Source: Capitulum mitella
Taxonomy: Eukaryota; Arthropoda; Thecostraca; Pollicipedomorpha; Pollicipedidae
NCBI GenBank assembly: GCA_030062745.1
Contig: CP099840.1
Span: 37,079,101-37,143,100, forward strand
DNA: 64,000 bases
Reading direction: 5' to 3'
Below the pieces are notes generated by a model. The model did not search any database and was not told the origin of the DNA. It saw only the letters and a program-made list of their open reading frames with translations. The position numbers and the translations under genes are program-made. Below are positions 11,918 through 64,000 of the stretch, piece by piece. How positions within the stretch are numbered: position 1 is the stretch's first letter; the number at the start of each line of letters is the position of its first letter.

Positions 11918-12082
11918 GTCACTACCTTAGCACCAACGTAACCGTTGACCCGGCCACGTGTTTGTGTTTTAGCACGACGTCGACCCCGCTTCGACCCCTG
12001 ACCCGGTCACTGGTGTTTGCGTCTTAGCACTACGCCGGCCCCGCCTCAGGGTCTGACCCGGTCACTGGTGTTTGTGTTTCAG
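11918..12082 (+). repeat. Three 55-bp tandem copies of a 3' splice site
   Basis: Three consecutive units end in TGTTTGTGTTTTAG, TGTTTGCGTCTTAG and TGTTTGTGTTTCAG, with AG at 11971-11972, 12026-12027 and 12081-12082, exactly 55 bp apart. Each AG is followed by CAC. The last copy is the acceptor of the exon carrying the predicted start codon of the centrosomin gene. Units share a GACCCGGTCACTGGTG block upstream of the pyrimidine tract. Confidence 0.75.
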
Positions 12083-12150
12083 CACGAACCCGGCGCGCCT
12101 GCCCGAGATCACCAGGATGGAGGTGAACGCCGGCTCCACAGGCAGCCTCC
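12083..12150 (+). CDS. cnn: cnn exon 1, start codon exon
   Basis: The exon lies between acceptor TGTGTTTCAG (to 12082) and donor CTCC then GTGAGTACC. ATG at 12117 in context ACCAGGATGG gives MEVNAGSTGSL, ending in phase 1, which exactly fits the next exon. The frame is also open from the acceptor to this ATG (TNPARLPEITR), so an upstream exon could supply an earlier start in another isoform. Confidence 0.6.
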
Positions 12151-15100
12151 GTGAGTACCGGGCACTGCGCTGCCACCGGTGACGTCATTTCACCCGGCTG
12201 TGGGCCTCTCCCCCGCCGCCAGTGGTGGCCGCCGGCGACGTTTCTCCCGGCGGTGGGTCTGTTCTCCCCGCCGCCACCGGATACGCTGTTTTTCGCGGTT
12301 CTCTCCCCGCCGCCTCCGGTGGCCGCCGGAGACATCATGTCTCGCGGCTGCACGCCTCTTCTCCGCCAGCTGTGGTGGCTGCCGCGCACGTGGTTCACGG
12401 TATTCCTCCGGGCCGGGCCGAGCGTTCGCCGCTCTCGTAGGCCGTTGAGGGTCGTGGCAGCTGTAATGTGATGAAATGAATTATCCGTGAAGCGCAGAAG
12501 CAAGGTCTTTTCAGCTGCGGATGTACGCGGAATTTAGCACGGGCGGCATCAAGTGGTTTACACACTTGCCCGTATTAATTGAGGACAACTTGGCAACGCC
12601 TTCAAACCAATTGTACGGTTTGATACTAGCATCAATGTCAGTTGTAAGTTATTACCGTGGTATGCGTTGGCCAAATACACAAACGTCACGGTTGAATCCA
12701 AGAGGGTTTTTACTGTCTGTTTTAATTAGGTGATACAAGAAGACGCCTGCGTACATTGCATTCCATTTAAAGGCGTCTTAGTGGCAACATGTACAACTTC
12801 TGTTCGAGGCGCATTAAATGCATCCGAAATACGAATGAACATTGTTACCGGCCTTAACGCACTGTTAACAAATGCCTTGTGTCGCTTGTTACGCATACCC
12901 TGCATTACCACCCCAGTGGGATCCGTTCGCAAGAAACAAGCGAAGGAACTCCAGAAAACTCGACCGCGGTTTTAAAGCGACGTTTGCCCTGTTCCACTTA
13001 CTAGTCGTTGTTTAAACAATGACTGCGAACTGGAAAAGTTTGAACCACGTTCTTGTCGACTAGCGGCATGGAGAACGAACAGACTGCAGCTGAAACGGGT
13101 GAAAGTGCGTGGGACTTGGCCACAGGTTGCCCGATAGACGCCTTGTTGTCGAGGCAGACCAAGTCCGACGCTGAAGTCTGGCGTCCTCGATGACCTGTGA
13201 CCGCTGCGGTAACTGAGAACTTCTCGACCTCGGCAGTTTGGGCGAGCGGTGGCCAAGGTTGGAAAATGCGCTTTTTTGGTGTTGAAGAACACCAGAAAAT
13301 ATGCGCTCTAAAACCATTTTGTACTCCAAAAGTTTGATCTGGTGCCTTCATAAAAAAATGTGCTTTATCCATGTTGACAAATTTGTAACTATGCGGACAA
13401 ATGACTGTCTCCATTCATTATGATGTCTCCATTCAGTAAGCTGGTATGATGTCATAGCTGACTTACACTAAGAAAGCCAATTTAAACCAGTATTACTCTG
13501 CAGAATTTTGTTCTCCAAAACAAAAAATTATACTCCGACACCAGGAACAAAAACCGAATTTCCAACCTTGGCGGTAGCCGACTCTGGTGTCCGCGGTGAC
13601 CTGTGACCGCCGCTGCGCCATAGCGTCTCTGGCCAGTTTGGACGGGCGGTGGCCGACTCTGGCGGTCGCCGTGACCTGTGACCATTGCTGCGCCAGAGGG
13701 CCTCTGGGCAGGTTGAGCGGGCGGTGGCCGACTGGCGTTCGCCGTGACCTCTGACCGTCGCTGCGTCTGAGGGTCCTGGGCAGTTTAGGCGGGCGGTGGC
13801 CGGTGTTCTCAGTGGCCGGACCTGTTTATGGAGGCAGCAGGCCAGCCGCGCGTTTGCGTTGGCAGACCACGGCCGGTGCCCGGCCCGGTCGGCGGCTGTT
13901 CAGTTTCTGACGACAGGCTGGATCATCTCGGCATTTGCGGCTGAGAAGACATGGTGGAGGAGCAAATATTGTGGTAAAGCCGAGGCGAATCTACGGTGCA
14001 CTGGGGGGAATCGTCTGGAAATGCATTGCTCTCTCAGCGCGATGCGGTTTATTTCTCGGGCTTTGGTCGGGACGATTGTCAGTTTGCTCTTGTCGCCTGA
14101 GGAAACAAATGGAACACCGCCTCGTTGAAGAGAGTTGGAAAGAAGCGTCGGGTACGACCGTGGCGAGAGCAGATGGCCAGGTCGAAGACACGTTCTTTTC
14201 CGAGTGCCGTCTGCTTCTTACGGAGTCGTGTTGTTTGCTCTGCACGTGCGTCGGCGTCGATCTGTGCGCACCAACGCGGCAGAGCCATCATTTGAAACGC
14301 TTCCGACTGCAACCGAAAACCGCCAAGAGGGAACCCGCGACAAAAGGACCGCGCCGCACACCGCAGCCGCAGTCCCTGTTCGCCTGCTCGTATGTCGCAA
14401 CGCGTTCCCAACTAGCGCTCCGTCCGGTGTCACTCGATCTCATCAGACAACCCGGCGTTTGCCGCAGGATCCCTCCCTGTTCGGGCGACCCCCGGTGTGG
14501 AGCGCGCGGCCCGTCCCCGTCCTTCTCAGACCCCTGTAATGCGGACGGCACGGGCTGCCTCTGACGGCGTTGATTTGGGTTGGCTCCGGCCGCCGCCGCC
14601 GGACGTCAGGTCGGGTCGGTGTCTGTTTATCCCCTCCCCCCCATTGCCGTCTGTGTCTGCCGCTGTTTATCCCGGCACGGCTCGGGGCGGGGCGGCGCCC
14701 AGACGGCAGGGAGACCGAGTGATGCGGACGGGGTTGGAGTTTTTTTTTCGTCGCACACCAAAACATTGTTCTCGGAAGGTATTCTGTGCTCCCAAATTTT
14801 GCTCGTCAAACTAGTTGCTACCTTTAAAAAAAAAATGCTGTTTAGGTCTCCAGGCAAATGACTGCTTCCATCCATCAATAAGCAGTTGTGATGTCTGCAC
14901 TGACTTGACCGAGGAAGCCGATTTAGACGCATATTTTGAGCTGTCTCACAAGATGTGCTCCCTAAAGAAAATTTGTGCTCTGGCGTTAAGAATAAAGACC
15001 AAATTTTCAACGCCCCTAAGCCCCAGTAACCAGCCAACCAACCAAATTTTCAACCCCGGACGCAGGTCTCTGCCATGCAGACTGCTGCCCTCCTCCCGCC

Positions 15101-21100: not shown

Positions 21101-24100
21101 CTCGACTGCCAAGGGCATGGAGCGGCGCTGGTCGGGAGGAATGTCAGAGACTGGCGGGCTGAGAAACAGACGATTAACCCTTTCATTTCACCAGAACTGA
21201 GACACTTTCTCGGAGGTGTTTTGAGGTCTTTGAAGGGGTGGTTACGTTCTCCGAAATGTATGTCATGCGATCTGTGACGTTGGTTGTTCGTGCTGGACGT
21301 TGTGCCGTTGCGACTAGACGCGTTCCCTTTTCGTCGTCCCTTTTCCCTGGCCTTCGTGTTATCACTCTTTACTTTCTGGTCCCTGGCCATGACTAGTGCT
21401 TTTGTGATCTCAGTATCCCATGGCAATTTACACCCTTGACCATATCCCATAGTTCACATCACGGATGGACAGTGCACATGTATGTGTGTAGGTTATGTAC
21501 CAGGGTTTGGGGAGGAGTGGCGACGCAGCAGACGTTCGTGATCGACGAGAACTGAAGCTCCTGCAGTCGACATCCGTCTTCGTTTAACCCCTGTCTGAAC
21601 TTTACGTCCCGATACCTCCTCAGATGGACGATCAGCCTCGGCTGGAGGGATTGCAGCGCACCTGTGAACAGCTACCTCCGGTCGTTCTGGCCCCTGTCTG
21701 ACCGTTGCGCCCCCGTACCTCCTCAGGTGGACGCTCAGCCGCGGTTCGAGGAGCTGCAGCGCACCTGTGAGCAGCTGACCTCAGGCCGGGCCGCGGACGG
21801 CGCCCGAATCGCCGAGCTCGAGCTGGCTGTGGAGTCAGCCAATGACCGTCTTAAGGGTGAGTTCTGGGCCATCCTCTCGGCTGCCCCACTGACCTGTAAC
21901 GCATTTGTCGAACTCGTTCGTGTAGGTTTTGATGTTATGATACAAATTCGTCATATCCTCACCGTTTTGTACATCTTGCGGGCTGGTCATAATACTGGCT
22001 CGCGTTTTAAAAGTTTAGTGACATGCCAGTCTGCTTTCATCCCGTCCAGAACTTTGTCTTCAACACACGTGCATCGTTTGGCGACATGGGTGGTCGCGAA
22101 CTGTTCCGCGTCGTTGCAACAGCGATAAGTCTACGGCGTTCCACGTTCAGCAAACAATTACCGCATCGGACTTTCCACGACTGAGGACGACTTTCAAAGC
22201 TCCCCGTCCGCTGTGGTCTGGGTGACGGCCGGTAAGTCGCCGACACGCCGCCTCTTCCCGTATTCTCGGCGTTGACCCGCCCACTGACTCGCCGCCTCCC
22301 CCGGCAGTGGCGGCGGCCAACGAGGCCACGCTCTCGGCGGCGCTGCAAACGGTCGGCGCCCAGCTGGCCGAGCGCAAGGCCGAGCTGGCGGCGGCGCGCG
22401 GCAGCGAGCGGCGCAGCGCCGCGCGCATCCAGGCGCTCATCGCCGAGCAACGCGACCTCCAGCAGATGGTGGCCAAGTATTTCGGCGGCCAGGAGGCGGC
22501 CGGCGCGCCGACGGCCGCCAGCGAGGTACGTGCGGCGGCGCGGCGCGACCGGCACGCCGCCTGCCTGGCGCCGTCGCAGCGCTGACCGGCCGGCGGCCGG
22601 CGGTGGCGACGCGCCGGCCGTGCGGCGGTGCGGAGCGGATGGCTTGGTGTGAGGAAGTCGTGTCGCATGCGGAGCGTTCGGCATGTGCGGGGGTCTGATG
22701 GTGCATGAACGGGTACGTGGCGGCTTGGTCATGTTTGGAAGTTGCTTTGTCCGTGCATGAATGGCTTCGCAGAGGGGATGTCGTTGGCGGCGTGATTGAC
22801 TGGGGCATAAGTCATCCGTGTGATTAACTTTTCAGTGTTATTAATTGTTCTTGCGTTGTACTGGGCCACAACTGTTGTGTAGTCCGTAAACAGTACCTCG
22901 AACTTGTTTGAGCTTCAAATATCCGCCCTTTCTATGTTGCTCTGTTCTTATGATCTCGTATTTTCATGCATTCTTGCAACATTAATGCAGATTCATCCAA
23001 TCAGCACATTCATGCGGAGGTGCACTGCTCCACGTTTACTTTTCTGTGAAGTTGGGATGTTTCATGTAACCTAAATGAAGGCTCAGTATGTTATGACGTT
23101 GTTTGCGTAGTTTCGAATTCATGGAACGCGGATGCACTGAACATCTGAGACGTATTCTCAGCGACTTTGTAAACTCCTCAGTTTGCTTAACCTATGAGGT
23201 GCATTTTATTATTCAACGTTGGGGATTTGTTGATTAATTTTCACTTTACATGCATGATTTGGAAGCGATCGCTTGAAAACTTTCGTTTCTACCGCGCTTC
23301 CCTCAATGTTGGAACGAACTCTGGCTCGCATTGAATGTCTTTCTACGTCGTGCGCTGGGAAAACAAAACGAAACTCATGCACGTGCTGTATACTTGGCCG
23401 AGGCATGCGCGCAGTGCAACCACGGCCCATCAAACGCTTGGGCTTCTGCTGTCCGTCCGCGAGCTTTGCTATCGCTGCGTCTCGCCTGTTCGGTAAGTCC
23501 AGCGTCGTTGCGCATCCTCCGCCGGTCGGTCCCGTCCCGTGCTATCCCGTGCCGTCCCGGTCCCGGTCCCGTCGTATCCCGGTCCCGGCCCAGGTCCTGC
23601 AGTCCCCCCCCCCGTGTTCCCAGCCGTCGTCGCCGGTGAGCGGCCGGCCTGTGCCGACGCCGCACGAGGTGCAGGTCTATTTGTTGCGCACCGAGACCCA
23701 GCGCAAGGACAAGAAGATCCGGAGCATGGTGGCCGAGATGAAGGAGATGAGCGACACGTTGATGAAGTACCGCTGGGAGGTGAAGGAGGTGGCCGAGGAG
23801 GAGAACGAGGTACCGGCGGCTCGGCTGTCCTCTTGTCCCATCGTTGTCCTCTCGCTTTCCTCGCGCCGTCCTCATCCACCGCTCCGGCTTTTAAAGTGTG
23901 TTGTTCAGCATGGAGCATGCTTATTTGTGTTATTTCGTGGCTGGTGTCGGATGAGTGAGCATGTTTATCGCATTGCATTTATATCCTTTTCTGCTCATTC
24001 GCTAAGAAAACTCTGGATACACCGCTTCTTTATGTCAAAAATATGGACGATTATGTCACCTTGATTGGAGCCAGTCTTCGAACTGATTCTGTTATGATTG

Positions 24101-27100: not shown

Positions 27101-30100
27101 GCCGCCGCCGGAGGCGGACGACGACGCCGCCGACGGCTCGCCGCCGCAGTCGGCGCGCCGCGACCCGCTGCCGGGCGACGTGCGCGACCGGTTCCGCCGG
27201 CTGGTGCGCCGGCAGCGCACCTCGGACCGCGCCAGCGGCACCGAGACGGCGTCGGCCGGCCGCACCGTGGAGCGGGCGCTCAGCCCGATCCTGAGCCTGG
27301 CGCGCGCCCAGTCGGCCGAGCTGCTCGAGCTGCGGCCGGCCGGCCGGCCGCCCAAGCCGAGCCGCTCGGCCGGCGAGGCGCGCTCGCGCTCGGCGGACCG
27401 TCGCCGAGCCGTCGGACGAGTCGGAGACGGCCGCCGAGCCGTACCGCAGCCCGCGGCCGGCCCGGCAGCGCCACCGCTCGCAGGGTGAGTCGGGCTTGCA
27501 GCTGCAGCTGGTGGTGTTCGGGGCGTTGTTTTATCAACTCTCTTACGATAATGTACTGTTCTTTTTCGGTACAAATACTACAAATTATGTCGTGCGCAAG
27601 TCCGTACGGGAACCAGGTATGACGCATGGGATGGAGGTCTAGACATCAATCGTCCATTGTTTTAAGATGTGAGCAAAGAATACGACAGCAAGCCCACCAT
27701 CACCCGCCACTATGATTGGTGTCAGAGGGGGCCCCGCCGCCAGGCCATACGCCGTCCCGCCGTACCAGTGTCAGTGTCGATATCTTCTGCGTTTGTCATT
27801 GATTTTGCGACGATCGCCACCAACCACCCATGTTGTCCCTGACGTGCCACCGCCGCCGCCGCTGCTGCAGAAGCCGCCCAGGACGCGCCGCCGCCGCCGC
27901 CGCTGCCCGGCGACTTCAGCGAGTCGGAGGCGTGGTCCGAGCCGGACCGAGACGTCAGCCTGGCGCGCATCGGACTCGACCAGAGCTCGCTCGGCACGCG
28001 CACGGAGTCCTGGCTGGCCGGACAGTCCGACTCGGACGCCAGGCGATGTGAGTGGGGCGCCGTCCGGCGGCGAGCACTGTCTGCTCCTGTCTATCGCCGC
28101 CTGAAGAGATCGAGTGTTTTCAGAGCATACGGTTTGTGGGTTGGCCGTGTACACACTTCGGCACAAAGCGTCACTTGCTAGGTATGTGCGGTCTGCGACA
28201 TTGTTTTATCATTCCATTGTGAACTTTTATATGGATTATATTGACTATTATTTTTCATACATGCTGTCTGACGAGGGAACATCATTTTTCCATTCGGCAA
28301 GTGTCAAACTTTGAAGGGCGTTGGCTTTTGCCCACTTTGTCCGTTAGCGATGTGCCACAACTGCGTGCATAACTTTCCTGACTGGGCCAGCCTTGGCCCG
28401 GTTCCCTCCCACGGTCTGTCCAATTGAAGCCGGGCACTGGTCACGAGCAGACAGCTGCCCCTGTGCCTCTGACCGGACGCGCCGGCCGCCGGCAGCGCGC
28501 CGCCGCCAGAGGGCCGGGCCGCAGGAGGCGCAGGAGCTGGAGGCCCACATCGAGAGCCTGCACCAGGTCAAGGACGCCCTGCGCGCCGAGGTGGACATCT
28601 ACCAGAAGGTGCTGCCGGCCAGCGGAGAGAAGGCCAGACTGCCCGAGGACCGGCCGGCGCAGGTGGGCGGACTGATGTGGCCTTGATGGTCACGCTCTGG
28701 TGGTTCTGTTCTTCTGTTTTTGGTCTGTTAGGACACGGGCGTCTTTTTCGCTACATTAGTTATTTACTTTTTTGTCACGGTCACTCTTACCAACAGTGTG
28801 TTGGTCTACATCATGAAACTGGCAGATCATATGGCTGAGTGGACTACGGTTGATGCGGCATTTTTGCGATTGCCAGTCATAGTGTTACGATAACAAGTGT
28901 GTACGATCACCCGGACTCATCGTTGTCAAATTTCAGTGTGATATTGGGATGGATTATCCAGGCGGGTATTGCGTTCAACGTCAGCATTGTTATAACCTGT
29001 TAAACCATCATCGGACTCGTAACGCGCGGTCGTGCCGCGTCCGTGACGGCGGCTTGCCGCCGGAGGGCGCTGCTGACGCGTGCTGCCCCGTTGCAGACGG
29101 GCATCATGGTGCCGGTTGAGGTGCTGACCGAGATCCACAACCTGCAACAGCAGCTGGAGCGCGCCATCGCCGCCAACGAGCGGATCCGCCGCCAGCTGGA
29201 GCTCACGCCGCGCCGCGCCGCGCCGCCCAACGATGAGCTGGCGCTGGCGCTCAAGGTCAGCTGCGGCGCTGAGGCTGGGGATCGTGAGCCGTGAAGGGGC
29301 AGATGTTAATCCAGAGTTTGGAGCGTAATGTGAGGTGGTTGGTGGTGCGGTGGTGCAGCCGCGAATTTCGGCGCGACTTACAGCAGACGCGACGCGAGCG
29401 GCACTTGTGAAGGCTGGCCGTGCCAGCAGCCGCCAGTTGGAGCGTTATTGTACAATGGAAAGTTATCCACGTAATACCTCGTACGCTGGGGTTGCTGGGT
29501 GGTCGCATTTGGCTTGAAACCTGGCTAAAGGTGCCTGCTTCTCATCGTCTGTCAAAAGCCAGGCTTGTCTCAAACCATTTTTACAGTGCGACCTACCATC
29601 CAGTCCATCGGGCGTCAGCTGCAAGTCACTTGCGGCCGCTCCGACCGGGCCGTCCTGCCGTGGATGTAACAGTACTGCGTCGCCCGTCCTCCCGTGAATG
29701 TAACAGTGCTGCGCCGCCCGTCCTGCCGTGGATGTAACAGTACTGCGTCGCCCGTCCTCCCGTGAATGTATTAACGCTGCGCCGCCCGTCTCAGATCACG
29801 CAGGAGCAGCTGGCCGAGGCCAACGACAAGCTGTCGGCCGCGCAGGAGCGCTGTGACGAGCTGCGCTCCAAGCTGACGCGCGCCAAGGAGAACCTGCGAC
29901 TGGCCCAGCTGAACGCCGAGGAGTTCAAGGACAAGTTCGTCCGCGTCTCCGACGACATGGTCCGGCTGCGGGAGCGCTTCAACCAGGTGGGCGGCAGCGC
30001 CGGGCGCAGAGAGAGAGAGAGAGGCGGCGCGAGTGTGCCAGTGCTGCGGCTTCTTGAGCTGCAGGCCCCTGAAGCTCTGCGAGCGGTCTGGAGCGGGGTC

Positions 30101-36305: not shown

Positions 36306-39300
36306 TAGTGACACATATTTGAATACGAGCCAATGACAAGACGATTTCCGATCATCGAAGCCTCCTTCATACGTGAAAAGCAGCCCGCTCTAAGCACGGA
36401 AGTTCGTTCGTGCATCAATTATCTCAGTCCGTCCGCCACATTTCTGGAGCGAAGTGCATCTCATACAGCCCAGCATTGGCTACCGCCTCGTAGCAGGGAG
36501 CTCTACCTTGTACCAGCAGTCCGGCAAGAGCAACGGCCGAGCTACGTCGACAGCCGGACAGGATCTGTTTGTGTAGGGGGGAAGGGGTGAGGTCACCAAG
36601 AGCACAGGTAAGTGATCTGTGTCAACTTGGGGGTAGGTGGATGAACAGCCCCACGGAACTCTATGGATTAGGATGTTTTTCTTTTATGTCCTTTCCATTT
36701 ATGGTGTTAACAATGTTTTAGATGGCCGTCCTCGTTCGGAGCGTCACTCCTCGCACTCCTGGGTGGCACGTAAGACTCCTGACGAGTCACACTCTTGGCA
36801 AGGGAAACGGCCCACAAAATGCTAACACCACGGGGTGGGAGGAGCTCCACACCGTCAGGGGAGCAGCCGTGGTACAGGTTCTCTGTGTGTGAATGGGGTG
36901 GGGAATGGCAATTACCTGGGGATGGCGGAGGAGACAGGGTGCAGGTTCTCTCTGTGTGCGTGTGCGTGTGTGTGTGTGTGAGAGAGGCGGGGAGTGGGAG
37001 TTACCTGGGGACCGGGGTGCAGATTCTCTGGGTGTGTGTGAGGCGGGAAGTGGGAGTTACCTGCGGACCGGGGTGCAGATTCTCTGGGTGTGTGTGAGGC
37101 GGGAAGTGGGAGTTACCTGGGGATGGCGGCGGGGACCGGGGTGCCGATTCTCTGCGTGTGTGTGAGGCGGGGAGTGGGAGTTACCTGCGGACCGGGGTGC
37201 AGATTCTCTGGGTGTGTGTGAGGCGGGAAGTGGGAGTTACCTGGGGATGGCGGCGGGGACCGGGGTGCCGATTCTCTGCGTGTGTGTGAGGCGGGGAGTG
37301 GGAGTTACCTGGGGACCGGGGTGCCGATTCTCTGCGTGTGTGTGAGGCGGGAAGTGGGAGTTACCTGGGGATGGCGGCGGGGACCGGGGTGCCGATTCTC
37401 TGCGTGTGTGTGAGGCGGGGAGTGGGAGTTACCTGGGGACCGGGGTGCCGATTCTCTGCGTGTGTGTGAGGCGGGGAGTGGGAGTTACCTGGGGACCGGG
37501 GTGCCGATTCTCTCCGTGTGTGTGAGGCGGGAAGTGGGAGTTACCTGGGGATGGCGGCGGGGACCGGGGTGCCGATTCTCTCCGTGTGTGTGAGGCGGGA
37601 AGTGGGAGTTACCTGGGGATGGCGGCGGGGACCGGGGTGCCGATTCTCTGCGTGTGTGTGAGGCGGGGAGTGGGAGTTACCTGGGGACCGGGGTGCAGAT
37701 TCTCTGCGTGTGTGTGAGGCGGAGAGTGGGAGTTACCTGAGGCTGGCGGCCTGACTGCGCCGTCCGGCGGCCGTGATGGGCCGGCTCTCGGCCGTCTCAC
37801 TGCCGTCCGAGCCCGGCTCGCTGGGGTCGCGGCCGGCCGAGCCGTCCTGCCTGGCCAGCGCGGCCGGCCCGGCCGGGTCAGACCTCTGTCGCCTCCACCG
37901 ACCCCGGACACACGCGAACAGCCACACCCGCTCACCGCCGCAAACGGCCCGACACCGCCACATACAGCCAGATATTACCAGATATCACCAGACACAGCCA
38001 GACATGGCCCGACGCCGCCAGATGCAGCCAGACACCGGACGACATTGCCAGACACAGCCAGCTAATGCTGGACACCGCCAAACATAGCGAGATACCGTCA
38101 GACTCACAGCCTGCCACCGCCACACAAAGCCAGACACAGCCCAGGCCACACGACGTCAGACATCACCACAGACAGTCAAACACGGTCATACACAACAAGA
38201 GAGGCTGTCGCTGGTGGGCAGTGCGGCCCGCCTGGGTAGGCCAGGCTTTCGCCGACTGACAACGCGACCACCTCAACCCGGACAGACCCCAGTCACGCAC
38301 AGTTACGAACGCAAGTACACGAGACACATGTGAGCATCCGCAAGGACACCCAGGCGCAGACGCGAACACAGGAACGAAAAGACGGAACGTAAAGCACCAA
38401 AACAACTGTTTACAGTCGGCAACTGGCACAGCTCTGCGCGTGAGCAAGACACACCAGGCATTACTCAGGACATACGCATGCGAAGAGGCACAAAGCTCAC
38501 TGACTGTTCAGACTTCACGACAGAATGCATCCAAATACATGCGGACACAGGCATGTTGGGCAGTGGCAAACACATGTTGAGGAGCGGTTGCAAATGTGAA
38601 GTTCGATTTTATTTATTTTCTTCATTTATGAACACATATTGCCAACGGTTATGCCTAATTATAGGCAGTCAAAACCAGGAAGAAATGCACATGTAAACAG
38701 AAATATGTAAGTAAATCTCGGTTCAGCTGAGACTGTCGCATGACCATGGCAACAGGCAAGGCTTCAACATACGATGGAAAACGTCTCTGCAGGCACAATA
38801 TTTAAAAACGTGTTGAAATGCTGCGGAACACGAATTAACAAGTTATGCAGTATGGCGATGACGCAGGCAAACGGCTTGTAAAATACTGCTGGCTTACGGG
38901 TGGCGCATGCGTGCACGTAAAAGTGAAAAAAAAACGTAACAGAACGGCGAACTGATGCAGTTGTTACCCGCGTCCGACTGGCACTCGGCGCCGACCACGC
39001 CGGACTGGGGGGGCGGGGCTGACCGCCCCCTAACTCACGGTTGGTCGCACAGTAAAATAAGCACACCGTTGGAAAGCTCGTGACAAGTAGAGCTCAAAAC
39101 TGGTCTCATTTTAAGTTTTGGGTAAAATGTAAGCCATTTACGCCCTATATACGTTTTCTCATTGCCGACTACATGATACCGAGAAACGACCTGGATCTCA
39201 AGGGTTGTGACTAATAACGTCTAGGTAGAGGCACCAACGCAAAGGTCAAGGTCCGCAGATGCCGATACATGCCTAATTTCTCTGATTTGCTCAATACATA

Positions 39301-45300: not shown

Positions 45301-46921
45301 TTATGAGGAACACGCAACCAGACGCATAAATGGAAGTAATTTTTCTGAGATCACTACAAAGGCCACGAAACTTTGGAACCAGACATGATAATCATACTGC
45401 GAGGCAGCTTTAGGGTAAAAGAGGATCTTTTACCCTGTCAACGTCTTACTGGAGTCCCACGAGGGTCCCAGGTAAAAAGTGTAATACCAGGCAACCGCCA
45501 AGGTATTACCAAACGTCGTCATTTGCTGTGATAGCTTATCTCATGATCTACTGGGACCTGAAGTGGGGCTGACACTAGCGCGGATGATTCATGGAGTGGC
45601 AAGACAAACAGCTGGGGATAGCACAGTTTGGTCGGGATTAGGCAGCTTAAGCTGTTGGCCTCATCAAACGTCAACACGCCAGCAATAAAGAGCCGGCAGT
45701 AGCCAATAAACACTTGAAAGCGCGAATACCCTGGCCTGCAGAAAACGCTTCATCAGCAGGACGAAACACAACGATCGACGCGAACGGCACGGCACGGGCG
45801 CAGCTGGGAGACGCGGCACACTGCGCAACAAAAGCCGCAACAAACGGCATCTCACACGGGACACCGACACCCGGGAGCCAGTCGACGGTCGGGGGCGCAG
45901 GGACGGCGCCAGTCGGCGGAGGCAGAGTCAGCCACAGACCCCGGCAGCTGCCCACGCGACCAGCTCCGTACCGAGCTCCCTGCGCCGTCAGCCCGGTGCG
46001 GCGCGTGCAGCGTCCTCCCAGAGGACACCGGATCACCCGTCACGTCCCTCCCGTCCGTCCCCAATACCGGACCAGCACGCCACCCTGTCATCGGCCGGAC
46101 ACCCGTCCCTTCCGTCCGCCCCCGCCCTGTTGTCTGTCCCAGGTCGGCCGGTCCAGACCCGATAGCGGCTATCGGCAGCTGCCGAGTCACACACATCTAA
46201 TGCCTGGGGCTATCTGGGCCACGTGCCCAGCCCGCGCGCCGCCGAGACTGCAGAGGCCCTCCGCCGGCTGAGAGGTCGGCAGAGGCCTGACCGCCGCGGC
46301 CGCCGCCTTATCTCGAGATCGACGAAGGCAGGACGCGACGGGGGGAGGGCGAGGGGGGGGGGGCGATACCTGGCACCACAACGGCGCGGTCAATATTGAC
46401 TCCGGGAGGACGCAATGTTTACGGCGCGGGAAATGGGAAGGTCACAGCGACGACGGAAAACCGTCCGTAAAAAAGGGCAGCCATCATGCTTACGCGGTCT
46501 GTCCAAGAAAAAAACATCTAGCTCGTGCTCAATTGTGTTCACACATTTCGTGATTGCAACTGGCTTAAAAGTTCTGACCGTCGTAACCGCAATGATGTGG
46601 TCGAATTTCCTCTAGCGTCGTGGGCTTTAACCTCGGTGGTCGCGCCAATGGAATCCTACCCTCCCCGTGGTCGCGCCGGTGGACAGTTTTACCTTCTCCG
46701 TGGACGTGCCGGTGGACGGCAGTGGCGACCTCCGTTGCAGCGGTGGCGGCGGCCTTGAGCGTGGCGTTCACGAGAGTGGTGGCCGCGTCCATTGCCGTCA
46801 TGTTGTGTCCGGCGTGGTCCATATGTCCGGCGTGGTTCATGTGTCCGGAGTGGTCCATGCCGTGTCCGGAATGGTCCATGCCGTGTCCGGAGTGGTCCAT
46901 ATCGTGCCCGGCGCGGTCCAT
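34120..46921 (-). CDS. Ctr1: High-affinity copper transporter CTR1 (SLC31A1), complete gene
   Basis: Seven coding exons join in phase on the minus strand: 46921-46693, 44675-44509, 43731-43598, 41638-41540, 37883-37737, 34476-34422, 34266-34120, giving 325 residues. The extracellular N-terminus is rich in Met, His and Asp (repeated [17 protein letters not shown]), for capturing copper. Three membrane helices follow: [20 protein letters not shown]; the second with the MxxxM selectivity filter (M285-L-A-F-M289); the third with GxxxG (G302, G306). The C-terminus is VTEHCH, the Cu(I)-handing HCH motif. CTR1 trimers import Cu(I) at the plasma membrane. It is longer than human CTR1 (190 residues) because of the N-terminus and a 49-residue cytosolic-loop exon. 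Confidence 0.9.
34422..34476 (-). CDS. Ctr1: Ctr1 exon 6
   Basis: This 55-nt exon lies between acceptor CCGTTTTTCAG and donor CCAG then GTAAATCG. It encodes [18 protein letters not shown], the loop residues leading into TM2, and converts phase 2 to phase 0. Confidence 0.88.
34477..36889. other. Proximal part of Ctr1 intron 5
   Basis: No coding content is supported. The stretch includes a TA dinucleotide microsatellite at 36232-36303. The open frame at 35.25-35.6 kb lacks any family signature. Confidence 0.45.
36232..36303. repeat. (TA)n microsatellite
   Basis: About 72 bp of nearly pure TA alternation is interrupted once by ACAC near 36245. Confidence 0.95.
36890..37736 (-). repeat. Minisatellite of duplicated Ctr1 exon 5 donor sites
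   Basis: The array is built from 56-bp and 68-bp units that differ by a 12-bp insert. Read on the minus strand each unit carries CCAG then GTAACTCCCACT, identical across the core to the true exon 5 donor (CTCAG then GTAACTCCCACT) at 37737/37736. There are 12 intact copies plus one variant near 36.9 kb. The 68-bp units also keep a degenerate copy of the last exon bases (GCCGCCATCCCCAG versus GCCGCCAGCCTCAG), showing that the array grew from the exon-intron junction. Confidence 0.9.
37737..37883 (-). CDS. Ctr1: Ctr1 exon 5, Ser/Gly/Ala-rich cytosolic loop insert
   Basis: The acceptor is GGCGACAGAG and the donor is TCAG then GTAACTCC; it enters and leaves in phase 2. It encodes [40 protein letters not shown] and RRSQAASL, a disordered loop between TM1 and TM2 that lengthens the usual CTR1 loop. 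It is the least conserved exon and a candidate for alternative inclusion; skipping 147 nt would keep frame. Confidence 0.78.
37920..38190. repeat. Degenerate short repeat (CAGACACCGC-like)
   Basis: Successive near-10-bp motifs such as CCAGATATCA, CCAGACACAG, CCAGACATGG and CCAGATGCAG fill this stretch of Ctr1 intron 4. Confidence 0.6.
39671..39981. promoter_or_regulatory. Cluster of everted TGACC...GGTCA elements
   Basis: TGACCTTAGGTCA (39671-39683), TGACCCTAGGTCA (39809-39821) and TGACCTGCCCTAGGTCA (39965-39981) recur within 310 bp of Ctr1 intron 4. AGGTCA is the classical nuclear-receptor half-site, here in everted arrangement with short spacers. The first two are followed by ATGG, so common descent from a repeat is also possible. 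Confidence 0.35.
40238..40735 (-). mobile_element. Non-LTR retrotransposon (LINE) reverse transcriptase relic
   Basis: Read on the minus strand, [20 protein letters not shown] corresponds to the reverse transcriptase active-site region (YADD, here YADG). It is followed by [20 protein letters not shown] (the usual W-KCK-H region), then after a frameshift [17 protein letters not shown] and [11 protein letters not shown], then [12 protein letters not shown]...VVWASAAK and HLAKLERM. This order is typical of CR1/Jockey-like LINEs. Stops and frameshifts make it inactive. It lies in Ctr1 intron 4. Confidence 0.85.
41540..41638 (-). CDS. Ctr1: Ctr1 exon 4
   Basis: The acceptor is GTGCCGTAG and the donor is CTC then GTGAGTGC; phase 2 to 2. 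It encodes [20 protein letters not shown] and [12 protein letters not shown], the cytosolic loop directly after TM1. A 33-bp minisatellite begins just upstream of its acceptor. Confidence 0.85.
41690..43010. repeat. 33-bp minisatellite, roughly 36-40 units
   Basis: The plus-strand unit is CAGACGGAACCGTTCCGAGG then GTCAGAGGCCCCC. Units come in at least three forms at one site (GGAACC, GGCACC, AGCACC). The period is a multiple of three and the unit lacks stops in several frames, so 200-636-codon open frames cross it on both strands without being genes. Each GGAACCGTTCC core is a near-perfect palindrome. The left edge degenerates toward Ctr1 exon 4. Confidence 0.95.
43598..43731 (-). CDS. Ctr1: Ctr1 exon 3, first membrane helix
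   Basis: The acceptor is CGCCGTTTCAG and the donor is AACG then GTACGTGC; phase 0 to 2. It encodes [20 protein letters not shown] then [20 protein letters not shown]. The Met-Thr-Phe-His-Phe-Gly start and LLYEGLK end are hallmarks of animal CTR1. Confidence 0.9.
44509..44675 (-). CDS. Ctr1: Ctr1 exon 2, second Met/His-rich segment
   Basis: The acceptor is CGTCCGCAG and the donor is GGCG then GTGAGCGC; phase 1 to 0. It encodes an Ala/Gly run and then [20 protein letters not shown] with the unit [10 protein letters not shown] repeated twice (an exact 30-bp duplication), ending GHVGHSGMA. Internal Mets could serve as alternative starts. Confidence 0.82.
46627..46720 (-). repeat. Tandem duplication of the Ctr1 exon 1 donor (33-bp unit)
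   Basis: On the minus strand CCACCGGCACGTCCACGGAG with AAG then GTAAAACT is followed 33 bp later by CCACCGGCGCGACCACGGGG with AGG then GTAGGATT. A third partial copy ends GAG then GTTAAAG. Both full donors are in the same phase, so use of the second would add 11 residues. Confidence 0.75.
46693..46921 (-). CDS. Ctr1: Ctr1 exon 1, start codon and Met/His-rich N-terminus
   Basis: The exon begins at acceptor TTGTTTTTACAG (exon base 46975), with 54 nt of leader containing an in-frame TGA, so ATG at 46919-46921 is the start. The first 45 residues are MDHSGHG-type repeats (about five), rich in Met and His, then [17 protein letters not shown] with two possible N-glycosylation sites. It leaves in phase 1 at donor GAAG then GTAAAACT. 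Confidence 0.85.
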
Positions 46922-46975
46922 GACGTGTCCAACGCGGTCTGTCGCGTTTGGGGTGGAGTCCGCGACTTCTCAGAC
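46922..46975 (-). other. Ctr1: Ctr1 5' UTR part of exon 1
   Basis: Untranslated sequence lies between a clear acceptor and the start codon, which shows that at least one further upstream noncoding exon exists, probably in the CpG-rich DNA at about 48 or 50 kb. Confidence 0.6.
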
Positions 46976-53340: not shown

Positions 53341-53400
53341 TAGCCTAGCCCAACATATTCCAGCCTAACCCAACCTAACTTAACCTAACATAACCAACCA
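53341..53400. repeat. Short degenerate CCTAA-type repeat
   Basis: Successive CCTAACCC, CCTAACTT and CCTAACAT motifs resemble the arthropod telomeric repeat (TTAGG, complement CCTAA), but the copies are few and imperfect. Confidence 0.35.
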
Positions 53401-57160: not shown

Positions 57161-57669
57161 AAGGCAAACAAAACGAAGCGAAAGGTGGTGGGCCTCACGT
57201 GGGCAGCTTGGACGGGGTCCGCCCACACTGAGCAGCTTAGGTTCACATGGATTCAACGCTGGCTGCCTGTGAGTTTTATGTTGGTCCTCAAAGCTTTAAA
57301 ACCCATTCGGAGCCCATGCAGAGCCCACGTAGCACCCAGTCAGAGCACACACAGACGAACCAGGGACGACGGATTGCATTTTCGGCGGGGGGGGGGACAA
57401 GCCCCATAGGATCAACGGCCGACCTCATTTGGGTTACTTCCCCCCACAAAAAACTGAATTTCTATCGCCCAGTTTTTCGTTAAATAAACGAATTTTTCCC
57501 CTGGTTTTCGCGCTGGTGTACACTTCTGTAATAGCTTGTAATACCTTTTTCCTATTAAAAGTATTACAAGGTATTACTATTCCGAATCCAATTCCGGTCC
57601 AAATCGGAGCGAATCCGAATTCGGCTCTGATTCCGCTGGAATCGAGCACAAGTCTGGTTAAAACGATAA

Positions 57670-57745
57670 AGTCTGGCGCCCTTCCGGCGCGAGTTTGGCG
57701 CCCTTTCGATGCAATTTTGGTGCCCTTTCGGTGCGATTTTGCCTT
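57670..57745. repeat. About 24-bp tandem repeat, three copies
   Basis: TGGCGCCCTTCCGGCGCGAG, TGGCGCCCTTTCGATGCAAT and TGGTGCCCTTTCGGTGCGAT follow one another. Confidence 0.7.
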
Positions 57746-59451
57746 CTCAATAATGTTGTCATGGCGCCCCTAAAAAGATGTCAAAATCCTGCCTCCGCTT
57801 CTGTCTATAGGCCAACCTATAGGTAAACCACGGAAAGTGGAACTATTGAGACGATGGGGGTGTTGCGCTCTTCCTTGAACACCAAAATTTGACTTCAGTT
57901 CTGTGGTGCTGACCGTAAAGAAATGACTCAAAAATGCGTGGTCGTGAAAATTACACACAAAGGTCGCGAAGCCATGCACAAAAACCTGTTTCTGAATAAA
58001 CGGACGTGCCTGCCGTACCGTGCGTAAGCCGCTTAGTGCGTGAGATTCCACACGACTCGTTTTAGACTCATGGGAATATAGCTGGCGATTCTCGGGGCGT
58101 TGGGAAAGCTCGACCCCCACTTTTGGAAGATTCCACATTGCGCCTGTGGCAATGACTGCATCCTAGTCAGATCTCACACGCACCTCCGATCAATTTTGGA
58201 AACACCAGCCGTGCAGGAAAACACCATTGTTTGAAGTCACCGTACTTCATTTTGCGTTCCATTACACACGAACCTGTTTTACTCATTATAAAGGTACAGG
58301 GGCGACTTCCGAGATTGTCGGCTTTACGTGGGATATAATGTCTTCTTGCTTGCCCCGTTGGCGTTCGTGGGTGGTAGATACAACTGTTCTTTTTTTTGTT
58401 TGTTTTTATTTGAGTAAATTACGGTCAGGCGAATCACATCACAATAATCACAATAATTTCTACCACTTGACCGGGTACCACACATACCGGATGATACGAA
58501 GTGTGGTGATAGATGGCAAAGAAAAGGGAAGGCAAAATGACAAAGCAGCAATGTGAGAAGCAATGTGCAATAATGTCTACAAAGCAAACACATGTGATAA
58601 TGAACAGGTCGTATACATTTTTCATAATGATTCCCCCTCATGTTCCGATGAATCTAGAACAGAATCCAAGTCATGATTCTCACCCGGGCCTGAGATCGTC
58701 GGCTTGATTCATCCCTGGCGCAGCCAGAACAATACAGAGATCTTTTCCAATAGTGATCCATGTTCCATTCTGCGAAGTTCGAGGATATCCACAACTTCAC
58801 AAAAGCGCCGCGTCAAACGGCGTTCGAGCCTTGAAATGTGTATTTGAAACGAAAGAAACGGAATTGTCATTCCTGACATGCAAAAGGATAAGTGCAACAC
58901 AAAACCAGCCCGAAATCATCGTAGCATGCGTTGGTAACTACCAAACCGGCGAGGGCCAAGTAAACCAAAATAAACATTCATCGAAACGCATGCAGTCACA
59001 ATGTTTCACAATATACTCGCGTGTTCTAGCCCATATTGCACAACACAATAGACTTGGGAAGGCAGCAGTTTCTTTACAACATTTTTATTTATTACACAAG
59101 CATATTTCAGCCGAGGCTGCTAGGTTTAATGTGTAGTGATAACATACTGAAGATAACAAAAGGAACTCGATTTTTTATTTAGTCTCCGTTTACAGATCCC
59201 TGCGGCACAATCCACGTGTCAGGAGACATCACGACGCCTTAAGTGCCTTATTTTCATCGATCTGCTCTGGGTGCAAATGCCGCTTACTCCCGCCCTGTAC
59301 AGCGGGTCGGCGCCATGTTGACGCTTTCTCGAGCGATCTCCCTGCGGAGGCCACCGCGCAGCCTCGACCGCTCAGATCCCCGGTGGGTCGGCGCCGTGTT
59401 GACACCCTCTGGAGTGGTCTCTCTGATCCCTGCCGTGCGGCCTCGGCCGAT

Positions 59452-59503
59452 TCAGGCGCAGAGCGGGTCGTCGGCGGGGTTGACCAGGTCCTCGATGTTG
59501 GGG
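59452..59503 (-). CDS. Right-hand gene, terminal exon
   Basis: The acceptor is GCGGCGCGCAG. It completes the codon left by the previous exon as Ser, then PNIEDLVNPADDPLCA and TGA. A short exon supported mainly by phase and its protein-like character. Confidence 0.4.
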
Positions 59504-62500
59504 CTGCGCGCCGCCTCTCAGGTACACGGTCGGAGAGGCCCAGAGCGGGCCGGCGGGGGGCGTGCCCAGCCGGGCCGGGGCCTCCGCCCTCCAGTCGGAC
59601 CTGCAGCCCCAGTCAGGGGTCAGCAGAGGCACCGCAGGGGACCACTGCAGGCAGCGCAGACCGGCCGCCCACACCACAGGCTGGGGCTGCAGACAGCGCA
59701 GACTGTCCGCAGACACCACAGACTGCGATTACAGACAGCACAGACTGGCCGCAGACACTACAGGCTGCGACTGCAGGCAGCGCAGACTGCAGCCACGCAC
59801 AGCACAACATAGATAGGAGACTCAGACGGCACACGGCTGCACCAGTACCATGGACTGCAGCTATAACGATCAAACAACAAAGTTAACGCATTTTAGGAGC
59901 TTCATTTCCTAATATCTAGCGAGATATTATTGCGCAGATATTTATTTTACAGACTTCCACATTTCTTCCATCGTTCTCGTCCAAGAGTCCGAACCATTGC
60001 ATGTCTCAGTCATCCATAGCATTGTAAAAAAAGTTCCCCCATTACGACATTTCGCAACTAGATCAAGAGCTGCAAGTTTAGATCTCTCCATATAGCTCTC
60101 TGGGCGTAGATCCACTCAAACTGTTTGTCAGACAAAATCGATCAGCAGTAGGAATAGTTCTGCGCACTGTGTCTGCCGTGGTGAACGAGGGCCCAGCGAA
60201 CTGTCGACAAGTTCGTCTCCGCGCGCCGACCCGTTTTCGACAGTTGAATCCCCACCGGAGCCATGACTCTCGGCAAAAGATTTCGTGTGAACTATGACCG
60301 CAAGTGACACTGAAGGGTTAACTGCGGGCCTGTCGTCCTCTTGTTGCATCACCTCCGATAAACTAAACCGACCTGCTGCCTGTCCGCACAGCCACTGGCG
60401 ACGAAACGTTTTCAGGTGGTGAGGAGACAGCAGCGGCATTCTTCGCGTATTACGCCTCTACGCCACGCCACAAGAGGAACGCCGAACCCTCTCCGGCTAG
60501 CTGTGGAGCCGCTTCCCCTCTTTCCCTCGTATACCGACGCCTACCTGATGTACATATATATGTCTTCTGACGTGGTGTCGGCCGGCGTCGCAGAGCAGAC
60601 CTATATCTGTCCTCTGACTTGGTGCTAATCAGCGCTGGGCAAACCTGACCTGGTACTAATCAGCGACGGGTAGACCTATATCTGTCCTCTGACCTGACGC
60701 TAATCAGCGCCGGGGAGACCTATATCTGTCCTCTGACCTGGTGCTAATCAGCGACGGGCAGACCTATATCTGTCCTCTGACCTGGTGCTAATCAGCGACG
60801 GGCAGACCTATATCTGTCCTCTGACCTGGTGCTAATCAGCAACGGGCAGACCTATATCTGTCCTATGACCTGGTGCTAATCAGCGCCGGGGAGACCTATA
60901 TCTGCCCTCTGACCTGGTGTCGGCCGGCGTCGCAGAGCAGACCTATATCTGTCCTCTGACCTGGTACTAATCAGCGACGGGCAGACCTATATCTATCCTC
61001 TGACCTGGTACTAATCAGCGACGGGCAGACCTATATCTGCCCTCTGACCTGGTGTCGGCCGGCGTCGGACAGCAGACGGGCTGCGGCGGCCGGCCGACGC
61101 CGGCTGACAGCGACATCGGCATCCGTCGGTAGCAGTCTGACACCGGACCGACGCCGTGCATCATCGCCGGCGGGAACAGCGCCGCCTGGTGGCGGGCAGA
61201 GACATCACTCAGATGGAGGTCTGCTCTCACAGAGAGCTCTGACAGCTCTGTCAAACAGAGAGCTGGAGATCGGCCCTTACAGCGCTGTCACGCAGAGGAC
61301 AGGACACTAGCTTTCACAGAACCTCCACACAGAGGACAGGAGACCGGACAACACAGCTGTCACACAAAGGGCAGACCACTTGCCTTCACAGAACTGTCAC
61401 ACAGGCGACAGGACAAGAAGATGCGCTTCCGATGCCAGAACAGGCCTATCCGCAGCGGACCGGAAACCGATTCATAAGAACGGCGCGGCAGACCTGTCTG
61501 GGAGACGTTTACAGCCGCAGTGAGCTTCGCCGCACAGGACGGAGGCAGAACAGCTCCGCGCTGGCCGAAAGACGGCCGCCTGCGCCGGTGAACGGACCTG
61601 GAAGGCCGGGGGGTCGCACCAGGCCGCGGCGCCGTACAGAGGTCTCATTTCGGCGGCGCAGAAGGACCTGCTGGCGAGCCAGGGCGCTGCCGGGGAGCAG
61701 CGGGCTCCGCACCATCTGCATCGCCGGGACCGGAGGCGCCACTGTCCGCAGAACGACGCCCGACTGTCAGCAACGTCACGTTTGTCAGCCGAAGAGCAGA
61801 TTGGCATTCGCATTTACGATGATTTTCGCGGACTCCTTTGATTCACATGGAAAGCCGTTCAAAGATGGATGCTGACCTTATAACCACCATACTCGCGGCA
61901 CGTGAGACATAGGCTCAATTTTGGTACGGGCCAAAGTTTCAGGTTATGCTGGACGAACGCACTTGATTCGCACGGAAATTGGTAGGTAGTCAGTCTTTCA
62001 ATGACGGGAAAAAATGAGCTAGGAGGGACGCTTGATGATCATCGTTAGAGCAGATCAAGGTTCAGTCATGTATGACAGTGACACCGCTGATTTGTATGGA
62101 AATCGACCCATATTATATTTAATCCTTGAACTTGGATTACAGGAAAATTACCGCATGAAGTGTGTATCCGCAACCGAGCACTATCTTAGTAGGCACTATC
62201 CAGGTACGGGTAGATTTGTCGTTGCTGGAGCCAGCGGAGACTGAGCTGTGACGGCCCTCGGCGGCGACTGAGCTGTGAAATGGCTGTGAAATGGCATGTG
62301 ACGGCCTGAAGTGGGCAGTGACTGGCCAATAACGCCCTGAGCGAATGGTGAATGACTTATGGCGGCTTTAATGACCTATGGCGGCCCGGAACGGACGGTG
62401 ACTGGCCTGTGACGTCCTGAGTGGGCGGCGACTGACCTGTGACGCCCTGAGCGGACGGTGACTGACATATGACGGTCTGGGTGACCTGGTGGCGGCCCGG

Positions 62501-64000
62501 AGCGGGCTGTGACTGACCTGCGACGGCCTGGGTGACATGTGACGCCCCGAGCGGGCAGTGACTAGCTTATGACGCCCTGAGCGGGCGGCGATTGACCTGT
62601 GACGCCCTGAGCGGACGGTGACTGACCTGTGACGCCCTGAGCGGGCGGTGACTGACCTGTGACGGTCGCCGTCCTGGTCAGGAGGGTCGTCGTCCCGGAG
62701 CCGGCCGCCTCGGCCGCCGCCTGACAGCCGGCAGGGTGGCGCTGCATAGGCAGTGGACCGGCGCGACCGCCGCCCACTGCCGCAGGCACCGGTCCGCTCA
62801 GAACCTCAGCGCCAACGAATTCATAGCACATCACCGGAAGACACCGAGAACACATCACTGACCGCTCATCGCTTACCCGAACGCCTTCACAGCACATCAC
62901 CTGGAGACACCGAGAACACATCACTGATCGCTCATCGCTTACCCGAAGGTATTCACATCACATCACCGGCGGCACTCAGAACACATCATTGGCCCGCTGA
63001 GTACCTCACATAGTACAGTTACCACCCCAGCAGTGACACTTGACGCCACTCAAGGAACTCTCAGCACCTCACACTCAGCAACTCGACATCAACGGGCAGC
63101 AGTTTGCGTAACGACAGTAAATGGCTTTCCATAACTTACGACGCATTTCTCTCTGATTCTGTACATACCGTTTCTCCTGAAACATTTTCTTAGGCGCAGT
63201 ATTTAGTTACGCCATTTAGCCATTTATTTAGCCATAGCGCCGGTTATGACCTCCTGACCGTTGGCGCAGTTTATGGAAGACAGAAGGCGTCTTCCATAAA
63301 CTGCGCAAGTTTCGAGGGTTTTATTACGTGTCCAGTCAGGTAACCGCACTTTGGAAAACGGCGGTTAACAATACTAGCGGCCCGACTCACCTGGCGTCCA
63401 AAGCTGTGACCCGAGCTGGTCGCCATGGCAGAGCGGGTTGTGGTCCGCGCCAGCCACCACGCCCTGGACCACGTGGTCGCTGTGGCCGCCTGGAGCGTGG
63501 ATCAGGTGACCGGCGAGGCTGGCGGCGCCGCAGACGCGCCGGCCGCCGCGGCCGCCCTGTCCGCAGGTGAGCCGCTCGGTGGACAGCGCCGAGCAGTGAG
63601 CGCCCTGGTCGCCGAGTCCGGGCTGGCCCTGGCCGAGCGGGCCGTGGCCGAAGCCGCCGGCCAGGACGTGTGGCGACGGGTAGTGAGCCGGAAACATCGG
63701 CGGCTCGTGCGCTATCTGCTCGAGGCGGACACCCTGGCTGTGGCCGATCAGGTCGCCGCGAGCCGACGGATCGTGCTGAAGGTGCTGGCTGCGGAAGACC
63801 GGGTCGAACGCGTTGAAGTCACCGTGGACGGCTGGAACGCCCGGGCCGAGGCCGCTCAGGACGTACTGGTCGTGCCCGTTCACCACCTGCTCGCAGCCCT
63901 GGCGGCCGGTCCTGACCACCGCGCCACAGGCCTGGTGCTCCCCGCGGGCCGACTGGTCGCAGAGCTGGCGGCCGCCGCGGCCGGCCGCGCCCGGGACGTC
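59452..64000 (-). CDS. Unrecognised Gly/His/Pro/Cys-rich gene, 3' part (five exons)
   Basis: Five minus-strand segments join in phase: off-edge to 63391, 62804-62657, 61715-61598, 61185-61049, 59503-59452. The first is over 200 codons, rich in Gly, His, Gln and Pro with scattered Cys. Later exons encode GGRLRDDDPPDQDGDRH, FCAAEMRPLYGAAAWCDPPA, MMHGVGPVSDCYRRMPMSLS and the C-terminus SPNIEDLVNPADDPLCA. Third positions are GC-rich in this reading, as in the neighbouring genes, and less so in the alternative frames tested for two of the exons. No known domain is recognised. Acceptors at 62805 and 59504 are weak, and the plus strand is also open over the first exon, so the model is provisional. 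Confidence 0.45.
59640..59810. repeat. Imperfect CAGAC-rich tandem repeat
   Basis: Units of roughly 27-28 bp (GCAGACACCACAGACTG, GCAGACACTACAGGCTG, etc.) lie in the presumed last intron of the right-hand gene. Confidence 0.55.
60569..61048 (-). repeat. 44-bp minisatellite of duplicated donor sites
   Basis: About eleven units follow the 61049 donor on the minus strand, each with CACCAG then GTCAGAGGACAGATATAG. Two units (near 60575 and 60915) retain exon-derived CGACGCCGGCCGACACCAG, matching the true exon end at 61049. The array therefore arose from the exon-intron junction. Confidence 0.85.
61049..61185 (-). CDS. Right-hand gene, penultimate exon
   Basis: The acceptor is a strong CTCTGCCCGCCACCAG and the donor is CCAG then GTCAGAGG. 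It encodes AALFPPAMMHGVGPVSDCYR, then RMPMSLSAGVGRPPQPVCCP. GC3 is far higher in this frame than in the other open one. Junctions are convincing; function is unknown. Confidence 0.55.
61230..61420. repeat. Degenerate CACAGAGGACAGGA repeat
   Basis: About four loose units of CTGTCACACAGAGGACAGGA type, about 45-50 bp apart, lie in an intron of the right-hand gene. Confidence 0.55.
61598..61715 (-). CDS. Right-hand gene, third exon from the 3' end
   Basis: The acceptor is CCGGCGATGCAG and the donor is CCAG then GTCCGTTC; phase 2 to 0. It encodes WCGARCSPAAPWLASRSFCA and AEMRPLYGAAAWCDPPAFQ, with four Cys. An alternative acceptor at 61742 in another frame gives a second phase-compatible chain, so this is provisional. 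Confidence 0.4.
62240..62656 (-). repeat. 30-bp minisatellite of duplicated donor sites
   Basis: About fourteen units of CTGACCTGTGACGCCCTGAG plus CGGGCGGTGA (plus strand) abut the 62657 donor. On the minus strand the best units contain TCACAG then GTCAGTCACC, identical to the true junction. The units furthest from the exon are the most diverged. Confidence 0.85.
62657..62804 (-). CDS. Right-hand gene, fourth exon from the 3' end
   Basis: The donor is TCACAG then GTCAGTCACC. The acceptor GCGCTGAG (to 62805) keeps phase 1; a better-looking acceptor at 62777 would need phase 2. It encodes AYAAPPCRLSGGGRGGRLRD then DDPPDQDGDRHR. Confidence 0.42.
62805..62960. repeat. 64-bp tandem repeat, two and a half copies
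   Basis: Units contain CACAGCACATCACC, GAGACACCGAGAACACATCA and GCTCATCGCTTACCCGAA in order. The first two units are nearly identical. Confidence 0.75.
63264..63306. repeat. Perfect 18-bp inverted repeat (hairpin)
   Basis: GCGCAGTTTATGGAAGAC (63264-63281) and its exact complement (63289-63306) flank a 7-nt loop, AGAAGGC. The hairpin lies in an intron of the right-hand gene. It may be a transposon-derived palindrome. Confidence 0.85.
63391..64000 (-). CDS. Right-hand gene, long Gly/His/Gln-rich exon running off the edge
   Basis: The minus frame is open for at least 190 codons to a near-perfect donor (CGCCAG then GTGAGTCGG). It encodes QSARGEHQACG, VVNGHDQYVLSGLGPGVPAV, FNAFDPVFRSQHLQHDPS and GHGPLGQGQPGLGDQG. 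It looks secreted or low-complexity, with Cys at intervals. The plus strand is also open with an ATG in good context at 63425, so strand assignment rests on the donor and on phase with later exons. Confidence 0.48.

Follow-up and report, generated by a model that had tools for sequence, protein, structure and literature searches.

Splice junctions and tandem arrays in the window

The window, as the whole 64-kb stretch analyzed here is called (C2:37079101-37143100, from the 477-Mb genome of the barnacle Capitulum mitella in 16 contigs), contains a gene that we take to be cnn, the gene Ctr1 and a third, putative gene at its right-hand end. In all three of them, minisatellite-like tandem arrays lie over or next to exon-intron junctions. 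Arrays were called using Tandem Repeats Finder (TRF); exons were predicted from sequence alone using a home-made gene finder and Pfam. A copy of a junction was defined, junction by junction, as a match of at least 18/24 around it. The initial annotation named seven junctions as carrying repeats, and its description of these as occurring throughout the window is fair. Clear copies were found for five of them (the acceptors of cnn exons 1 and 6, the donor of Ctr1 exon 5 and two donors of the right-hand gene), and the donor of Ctr1 exon 1 was not confirmed. The positions of the features are given in Table 1.

In cnn, which carries the Pfam domain Cnn_1N, the array over the acceptor of exon 1 contains copies of the junction at -110 (20/24) and -55 (19/24) with TTAG|CAC, duplicating about 10 and 14 exon nucleotides. 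The acceptor of exon 6 has one copy, at -103 (20/24), which carries about 60 nt of the exon. The array before exon 15 abuts the acceptor, as had been noted, stopping 4 bp short of it, and no copy of this junction was found at the 18/24 threshold. A total of 19 cnn exons were placed by hand; compared with them, the gene finder made 18 predictions with 15 exact acceptors and 15 exact donors. The joined frame has no break in exons 1-10 or over most of exon 11, after which it is interrupted; the exons beyond that point rest on splice sites and coding score. The change of frame (window ~26949-27031) adjoins a coding 48-bp repeat and may be a small intron, a frameshift or an assembly error.

The joined exons of Ctr1 gave a match to the Pfam family Ctr (116.3 bits). 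The donor of exon 5 (37737|37736, CAG|GTAACT) has 13 further copies, 12 inside the array and one beyond it at +821. The exon-side sequence in the units amounts to 6-17 nt, and the full CAG|GTAACT is kept in 12 of the 12 aligned further copies. At the donor of exon 1, diverged copies were seen by eye, with neither a TRF call nor a copy reaching 18/24. Other repeats of this gene include those at its Met/His-rich start (window 44550-44618 and 46805-46930, minus strand), where a 10-residue stretch occurs twice; MDHSGHG-like units were made out there by eye, their frame running into a stop at the ATG assigned here. The top-scoring array of the window also belongs to Ctr1: it extends over 41724-42981 in an intron, consists of 38 copies of a 33-bp unit and is separated by 85 bp from the nearest exon.

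The repeats at both donors of the right-hand gene were confirmed. The gene model itself is unsupported: no Pfam match was found for it, and the gene finder predicts no exon at the second donor. The first donor (61049|61048) has 10 further copies, seven of which retain CAG|GTCAGAGG. The second (62657|62656) has nine further copies, seven inside the array and two beyond, and several sites within this array have been lost. At the other end of the window (1061-1910, minus strand), a long open frame ends in RPNIVLIMTDDLD; no Pfam match was found there, and the product is presumably sulfatase-like.

Table 1. Exons, arrays and splice junctions discussed in the text (window coordinates)
Feature	Position	Strand	Basis
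cnn exon 1, ATG at 12117	12083..12150	+	exon model; Cnn_1N, 55 bits
Array over the cnn exon 1 acceptor, 55 bp x 2.7	11946..12094	+	TRF
cnn exon 6	21727..21856	+	exon model, by hand
Duplication over the cnn exon 6 acceptor, 103 bp x 1.9	21588..21782	+	TRF
cnn exon 15	29795..29986	+	exon model
Array before cnn exon 15, 34 bp x 4	29650..29790	+	TRF
Ctr1 exon 5	37737..37846 (5' edge approximate)	-	gene finder, 17.1 bits; Ctr domain
Array at the Ctr1 exon 5 donor, units of 56/68/124 bp	about 37004-37750	-	TRF
Ctr1 exon 1 donor (46693|46692), diverged ~30-bp copies, unconfirmed	46660..46725 (bounds approximate)	-	by eye only
Right-hand gene, predicted exon ending at donor 61049|61048	61049..61185	-	gene finder, 17.7 bits
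Right-hand gene, first donor array, units of 44/135 bp, ACCAG|GTCAGAGG	60645..61077	-	TRF
Right-hand gene, second donor array, 30-bp unit, CACAG|GTCAGTC at 62657|62656	62372..62664	-	TRF

Recurrence elsewhere in the genome

Three further stretches were picked blind at round coordinates, on C1 and C3 (100 kb each) and on C5 (50 kb), so that together with the window 314 kb were fully examined. The clearest recurrence in the blind stretches is in THOC3, where the exon end at CAG|GTGAGT is repeated four more times at a spacing of 78 bp, every copy carrying 27-40 nt of exon-side sequence. With only two exons supplied, the THOC3 match in Pfam reached 160.9 bits, short of the full-length cut-off; the WD40 match (47.6 bits) exceeded its own cut-off. 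Pfam domains were also found in the genes that we take to be glass (zinc fingers), SASH (SH3/SAM) and nompA (PAN/cuticlin). An exon of the SH3/SAM gene (C3 block 68163) is adjoined by a diverged-looking donor array in which no copy reached 18/24, and it was left out of the junction copies.

A search for three CAGGTRAGT words 15-45 bp apart gave 121 matches genome-wide. At least 22 loci were distinguished among the 100 matches listed, two of them being copies of one duplicated segment. Tandem donors recur across the genome, and exon ends are part of several units, as the initial annotation had noted for the window. At most of the 20 loci inspected the units are about 27-52 bp long, and the spacings in the junction arrays of the window are 30-135 bp. 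In 10 of these 20 loci the first copy marks the end of an exon-like stretch (score of at least 15); among 767 weaker donor-like sites taken as controls, the share was 12.5%. Ten peptides from tandem-donor loci, nine of them from the ten scoring loci, gave Pfam matches above the cut-off in three cases (PDZ, VPS9 and DEAD), weak matches in two and none in five. The duplicated segment places the same tandem-donor array at two positions 26 kb apart (G000:C6:6607092 and G000:C6:6633480), the first copy lying beside a weakly PDZ-like exon.

The exon-like stretches at tandem donors also bear on whether the arrays are an artefact of the assembly or of the gene models, with repeats collapsed or expanded or with junctions not in use. 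Such an origin would fit the use of one assembly with gene models built from sequence alone, the right-hand gene without homology support and the broken frame in cnn exon 11. However, Pfam supports cnn, Ctr1 and THOC3, and the copies in the junction arrays of the window are diverged (68-94% TRF matches), as is expected of real old repeats. Taken with the excess of exon-like stretches over the control sites, this makes an artefact highly improbable.

Array density, GC content and exon edges

Array density tracks GC content and exon proximity, exons included. The GC content of exons is 71%. For the 74 credible exons (13 of the 87 predicted exons were removed by hand as not credible), arrays cover 6.2% of the exons themselves, 6.0% of the DNA at 1-25 bp from them, 7.6% at 26-100 bp and 7.8% at 101-250 bp. 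Further out, the coverage is 5.1% at 251-500 bp, 6.3% at 501-1000 bp, 3.3% at 1-2.5 kb and 2.8% beyond 2.5 kb. When the DNA was divided into rising GC classes, coverage more than 1 kb from exons was 1.7, 1.8, 1.1, 3.6, 6.3 and 7.1%, and in the first 100 bp of introns it was 0, 0, 4.9, 5.6, 7.5 and 10.7%.

Arrays pile up at exon edges. In six Pfam-supported genes, 11 of the 25 arrays lie within 25 bp of an edge, one of them (46805-46930) adjoining the Ctr1 start codon and not a splice site; 3.3 were expected under placement in the same gene (p 0.0003) and 4.25 with intronic GC matched (p 0.0005). For the four genes of the blind stretches, the count was 6 of 13, with 1.5 and 2.2 expected (p 0.0008 and 0.0055). 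The initial annotation raised the question of whether arrays overlap splice sites more often than by chance. Arrays near edges are in excess. Those that straddle an edge are not (4 of the 25 in the six genes, 2.2-3.0 expected), and within 10 bp the blind genes have 3 of 13 arrays, with 1.25-1.8 expected (p 0.12 and 0.25).

Among the non-coding arrays, 10 of 58 lie within 10 bp of a predicted exon, with 3.9 expected under rotation (p 0.002); two of the 10 rest on exons later judged not credible. Matching the GC content of the flanks lifts this expectation to 6.6 (p 0.11). With the same matching, 14 arrays were found within 50 bp (8.9 expected, p 0.04) and 22 within 250 bp (16.5 expected, p 0.07). 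The PAN/cuticlin gene on C5 has no arrays within 25 bp of an edge, and thus genes differ in this respect.

Is the junction itself favored?

If splice junctions were hotspots at which R-loops, transcription-coupled repair or the CAGGT word start duplications, an excess near edges and many tandem donors could both be expected; the former was found, and at least 22 donor loci compare with 9 and 19 for two control words. Local copying was examined at 113 junctions of the six genes, a 30-mer being scored as copied if it matched at 23/30 or better within 600 bp. Junction-spanning 30-mers had a local copy in 4 of 113 cases, less often than those 15-60 bp inside the intron (9-11 of 113). The counts were 3 of 113 and 2 of 113 at 20 and 40 bp inside the exon, and 5 of 88 and 9 of 83 at 400 and 500 bp inside the intron. 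At these junctions there is no peak of tandem copying at the junction itself.

The genome-wide donor counts were compared with those of other words. The reversed donor word gave no tandem triples, compared with the 121 of the donor word. Two unrelated control words gave 69 matches at 9 loci and 70 matches at 19 loci, and their reverses gave 60 and 134 matches. The reversed-word zero is not proof of seeding at junctions because of these control counts, and it was rejected as such; the donor total lies inside the range of 60-134 given by the control words and their reverses. As single words, the donor word occurs 9 times in the 314 kb, the controls 12 and 11 times and the reversed donor word 3 times. 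From the 314 kb, 8.7 loci were estimated for an average word of this class, and donors are about 2.5-fold above this figure; per 1000 single occurrences there are about 1.6 tandem loci for the donor word (by arithmetic from 22 loci and the 9 single occurrences in 314 kb), close to the 1.36 of the class. A control word also hit a 3.7-kb array with a 40-bp unit (G000:C16:17419108-17422826).

That arrays as a class are rich in splice motifs was likewise considered and rejected: the units of 58 arrays did not exceed dinucleotide shuffles (combined p 0.26 for donors and 0.69 for acceptors). The results do not support the proposal of repeats seeded by junctions. Amplification of the junction itself applies to the five cases with clear copies and not as a general rule, and hotspots at junctions appear unlikely given the missing peak, the lack of excess in straddling arrays, the shuffled motifs and the control words.

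Origin of the units and fate of the copied splice sites

The 68 array units in the 314 kb gave four cross-matching pairs, none of which involves an array of the window. The units duplicate the sequence of the locus in which they lie, including the exon end. Since each locus has units of its own, nothing in the 314 kb points to a mobile element, and a mobile origin was rejected for this DNA. A mobile element or an introner-like process inserting at junctions, which had been suggested as one shared cause, would draw on nothing beyond the recurrence of repeats at junctions, and we consider it the least probable of the explanations, with almost no weight left to it. A GC-linked cause by slippage or exchange, close to the other suggestion (replication slippage or repair at GC-rich junctions), fits. 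Two arrays in the C3 block (12492-12917 and 43897-44270), 31 kb apart, have a common 152-bp unit; they are satellite-like, unlike the private units elsewhere.

The copied sites had also been suggested to act as decoys that tune splicing. The intact CAG|GTAACT in all aligned Ctr1 exon 5 copies and the seven of ten donors retained at the first junction of the right-hand gene would agree with selection for such a role. However, conservation of the splice site does not clearly stand out among the windows of a unit, with ranks of 7/48, 6/36, 17/22, 11/70 and 4/40 in the arrays compared, and the second right-hand array has lost several of its sites. For three decoy donors in each of THOC3, Ctr1 and the right-hand gene, splicing at the decoy would add a stop codon, as would use of the decoy acceptor of cnn exon 6. 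Selection for decoy sites was rejected on these grounds, with no sign of function found for the copied sites in conservation within units or in decoy reading frames, and we regard it as highly improbable.

Comparison with known repeats

Ordinary GC-rich minisatellites, or variable number tandem repeats, have private units and degenerate copies, are mostly GC-rich and occur in coding exons too. The arrays described here differ from them only in the overlap with splice junctions and the pile-up at exon edges.

Repeats of this boundary type have been described in amphioxus under the name "mirages". According to two reports (PMC3087553, PMC3902484), these are minisatellite-like tandem duplications over 5' or 3' exon-intron boundaries (Adh3, globins, troponin C and PGBD5), with units of about 10-160 bp and numerous copies bearing AG/GT signals; splicing was reported to be undisturbed and the length of the repeats to be unstable. 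The barnacle arrays are similar in several respects. Their units are minisatellite-like and fall within the same size range, they span the boundary together with exon sequence (cnn exons 1 and 6, Ctr1 exon 5, THOC3), and both types of boundary are affected, namely acceptors in cnn exons 1 and 6 and donors in Ctr1 exon 5 and THOC3. The differences lie in the host, an arthropod and not a cephalochordate, in the density, measured here across 314 kb and with genome-wide words, and in the kind of data, which for splicing and length instability were reported in amphioxus and here consist of a single assembly. The kind of repeat for which a new genome-evolution pattern had been suggested already has a name. 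Searches aimed at arthropods or at duplicated splice sites, in a literature of which the coverage was partial, gave no report of such repeats.

Tandem duplications with splice signals and exon sequence are also described, in PMC4974935, for ATP2A1 and potato RdRp. The duplication at cnn exon 6 with its ~60 exon nucleotides resembles these cases; unlike them, the copies here sit inside existing introns as modelled, and no new intron was seen, none having been looked for.

Interpretation

We consider it likely that the arrays are ordinary minisatellites which arose locally in GC-rich gene DNA and which sometimes span an exon-intron junction by chance, as "mirages". They are best classed with the mirage-type minisatellites, as an occurrence in a new lineage. 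This reading draws on the arrays and the exon sequence in them, on the way in which their density varies with GC and distance, on the private units and on the missing junction peak. GC-rich minisatellites form at high density where the DNA is GC-rich, chiefly in exons and the nearby intron, with local slippage or unequal exchange as the probable mutational step. A duplication touching a junction could survive if it adds its copies on the intron side and leaves the splice site adjacent to the exon working, and purifying selection would remove growth into the coding exon. Arrays may pile up at exon edges because of this barrier. The copied splice sites would then be by-products, and splicing would proceed normally from the copy next to the exon. 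In the simplest reading, GC-rich gene DNA gives rise to arrays along its whole length, and selection halts them at coding edges.

Several observations weigh against this. Within the same GC class, the first 100 bp of introns often have more coverage than far DNA (10.7 and 7.1% in the highest class), and coverage does not change smoothly with distance, as seen from the value at 501-1000 bp. The edge pile-up in the six genes persists after GC matching (p about 0.0005), and therefore GC alone is insufficient as an explanation. The zero count of the reversed donor word and the at least 22 donor loci, above both control words, would each, if taken alone, argue that donors are special. In addition, the exons come from the home-made gene finder and Pfam, and the fully examined DNA is 314 kb.

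A stronger statement would be that exon-flanking minisatellites are so dense in this genome that some 3.5-5% of junctions are tandemly copied, that they arose independently of those of amphioxus and that exon edges act as barriers. It is put forward tentatively, at somewhat less than even chances. The results also advise caution, as the overlap of junctions and repeats can seem special while largely reflecting GC-rich, repeat-prone exon flanks. If the observed rate of 4-6 in 113 junctions holds genome-wide, very many junctions would have near-perfect competitors tens of bases off, their number depending on the intron count of the genome. The "mirage" phenomenon would be extended outside cephalochordates. 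Such a genome would hold a standing supply of duplicated splice sites and would lend itself, as a natural test-bed, to work on splice-site choice and on the birth of introns through tandem duplication. Its natural sequences, together with RNA reads, would allow one to ask by what means the spliceosome selects the copy next to the exon and how frequently new exons or introns develop from copied junctions.

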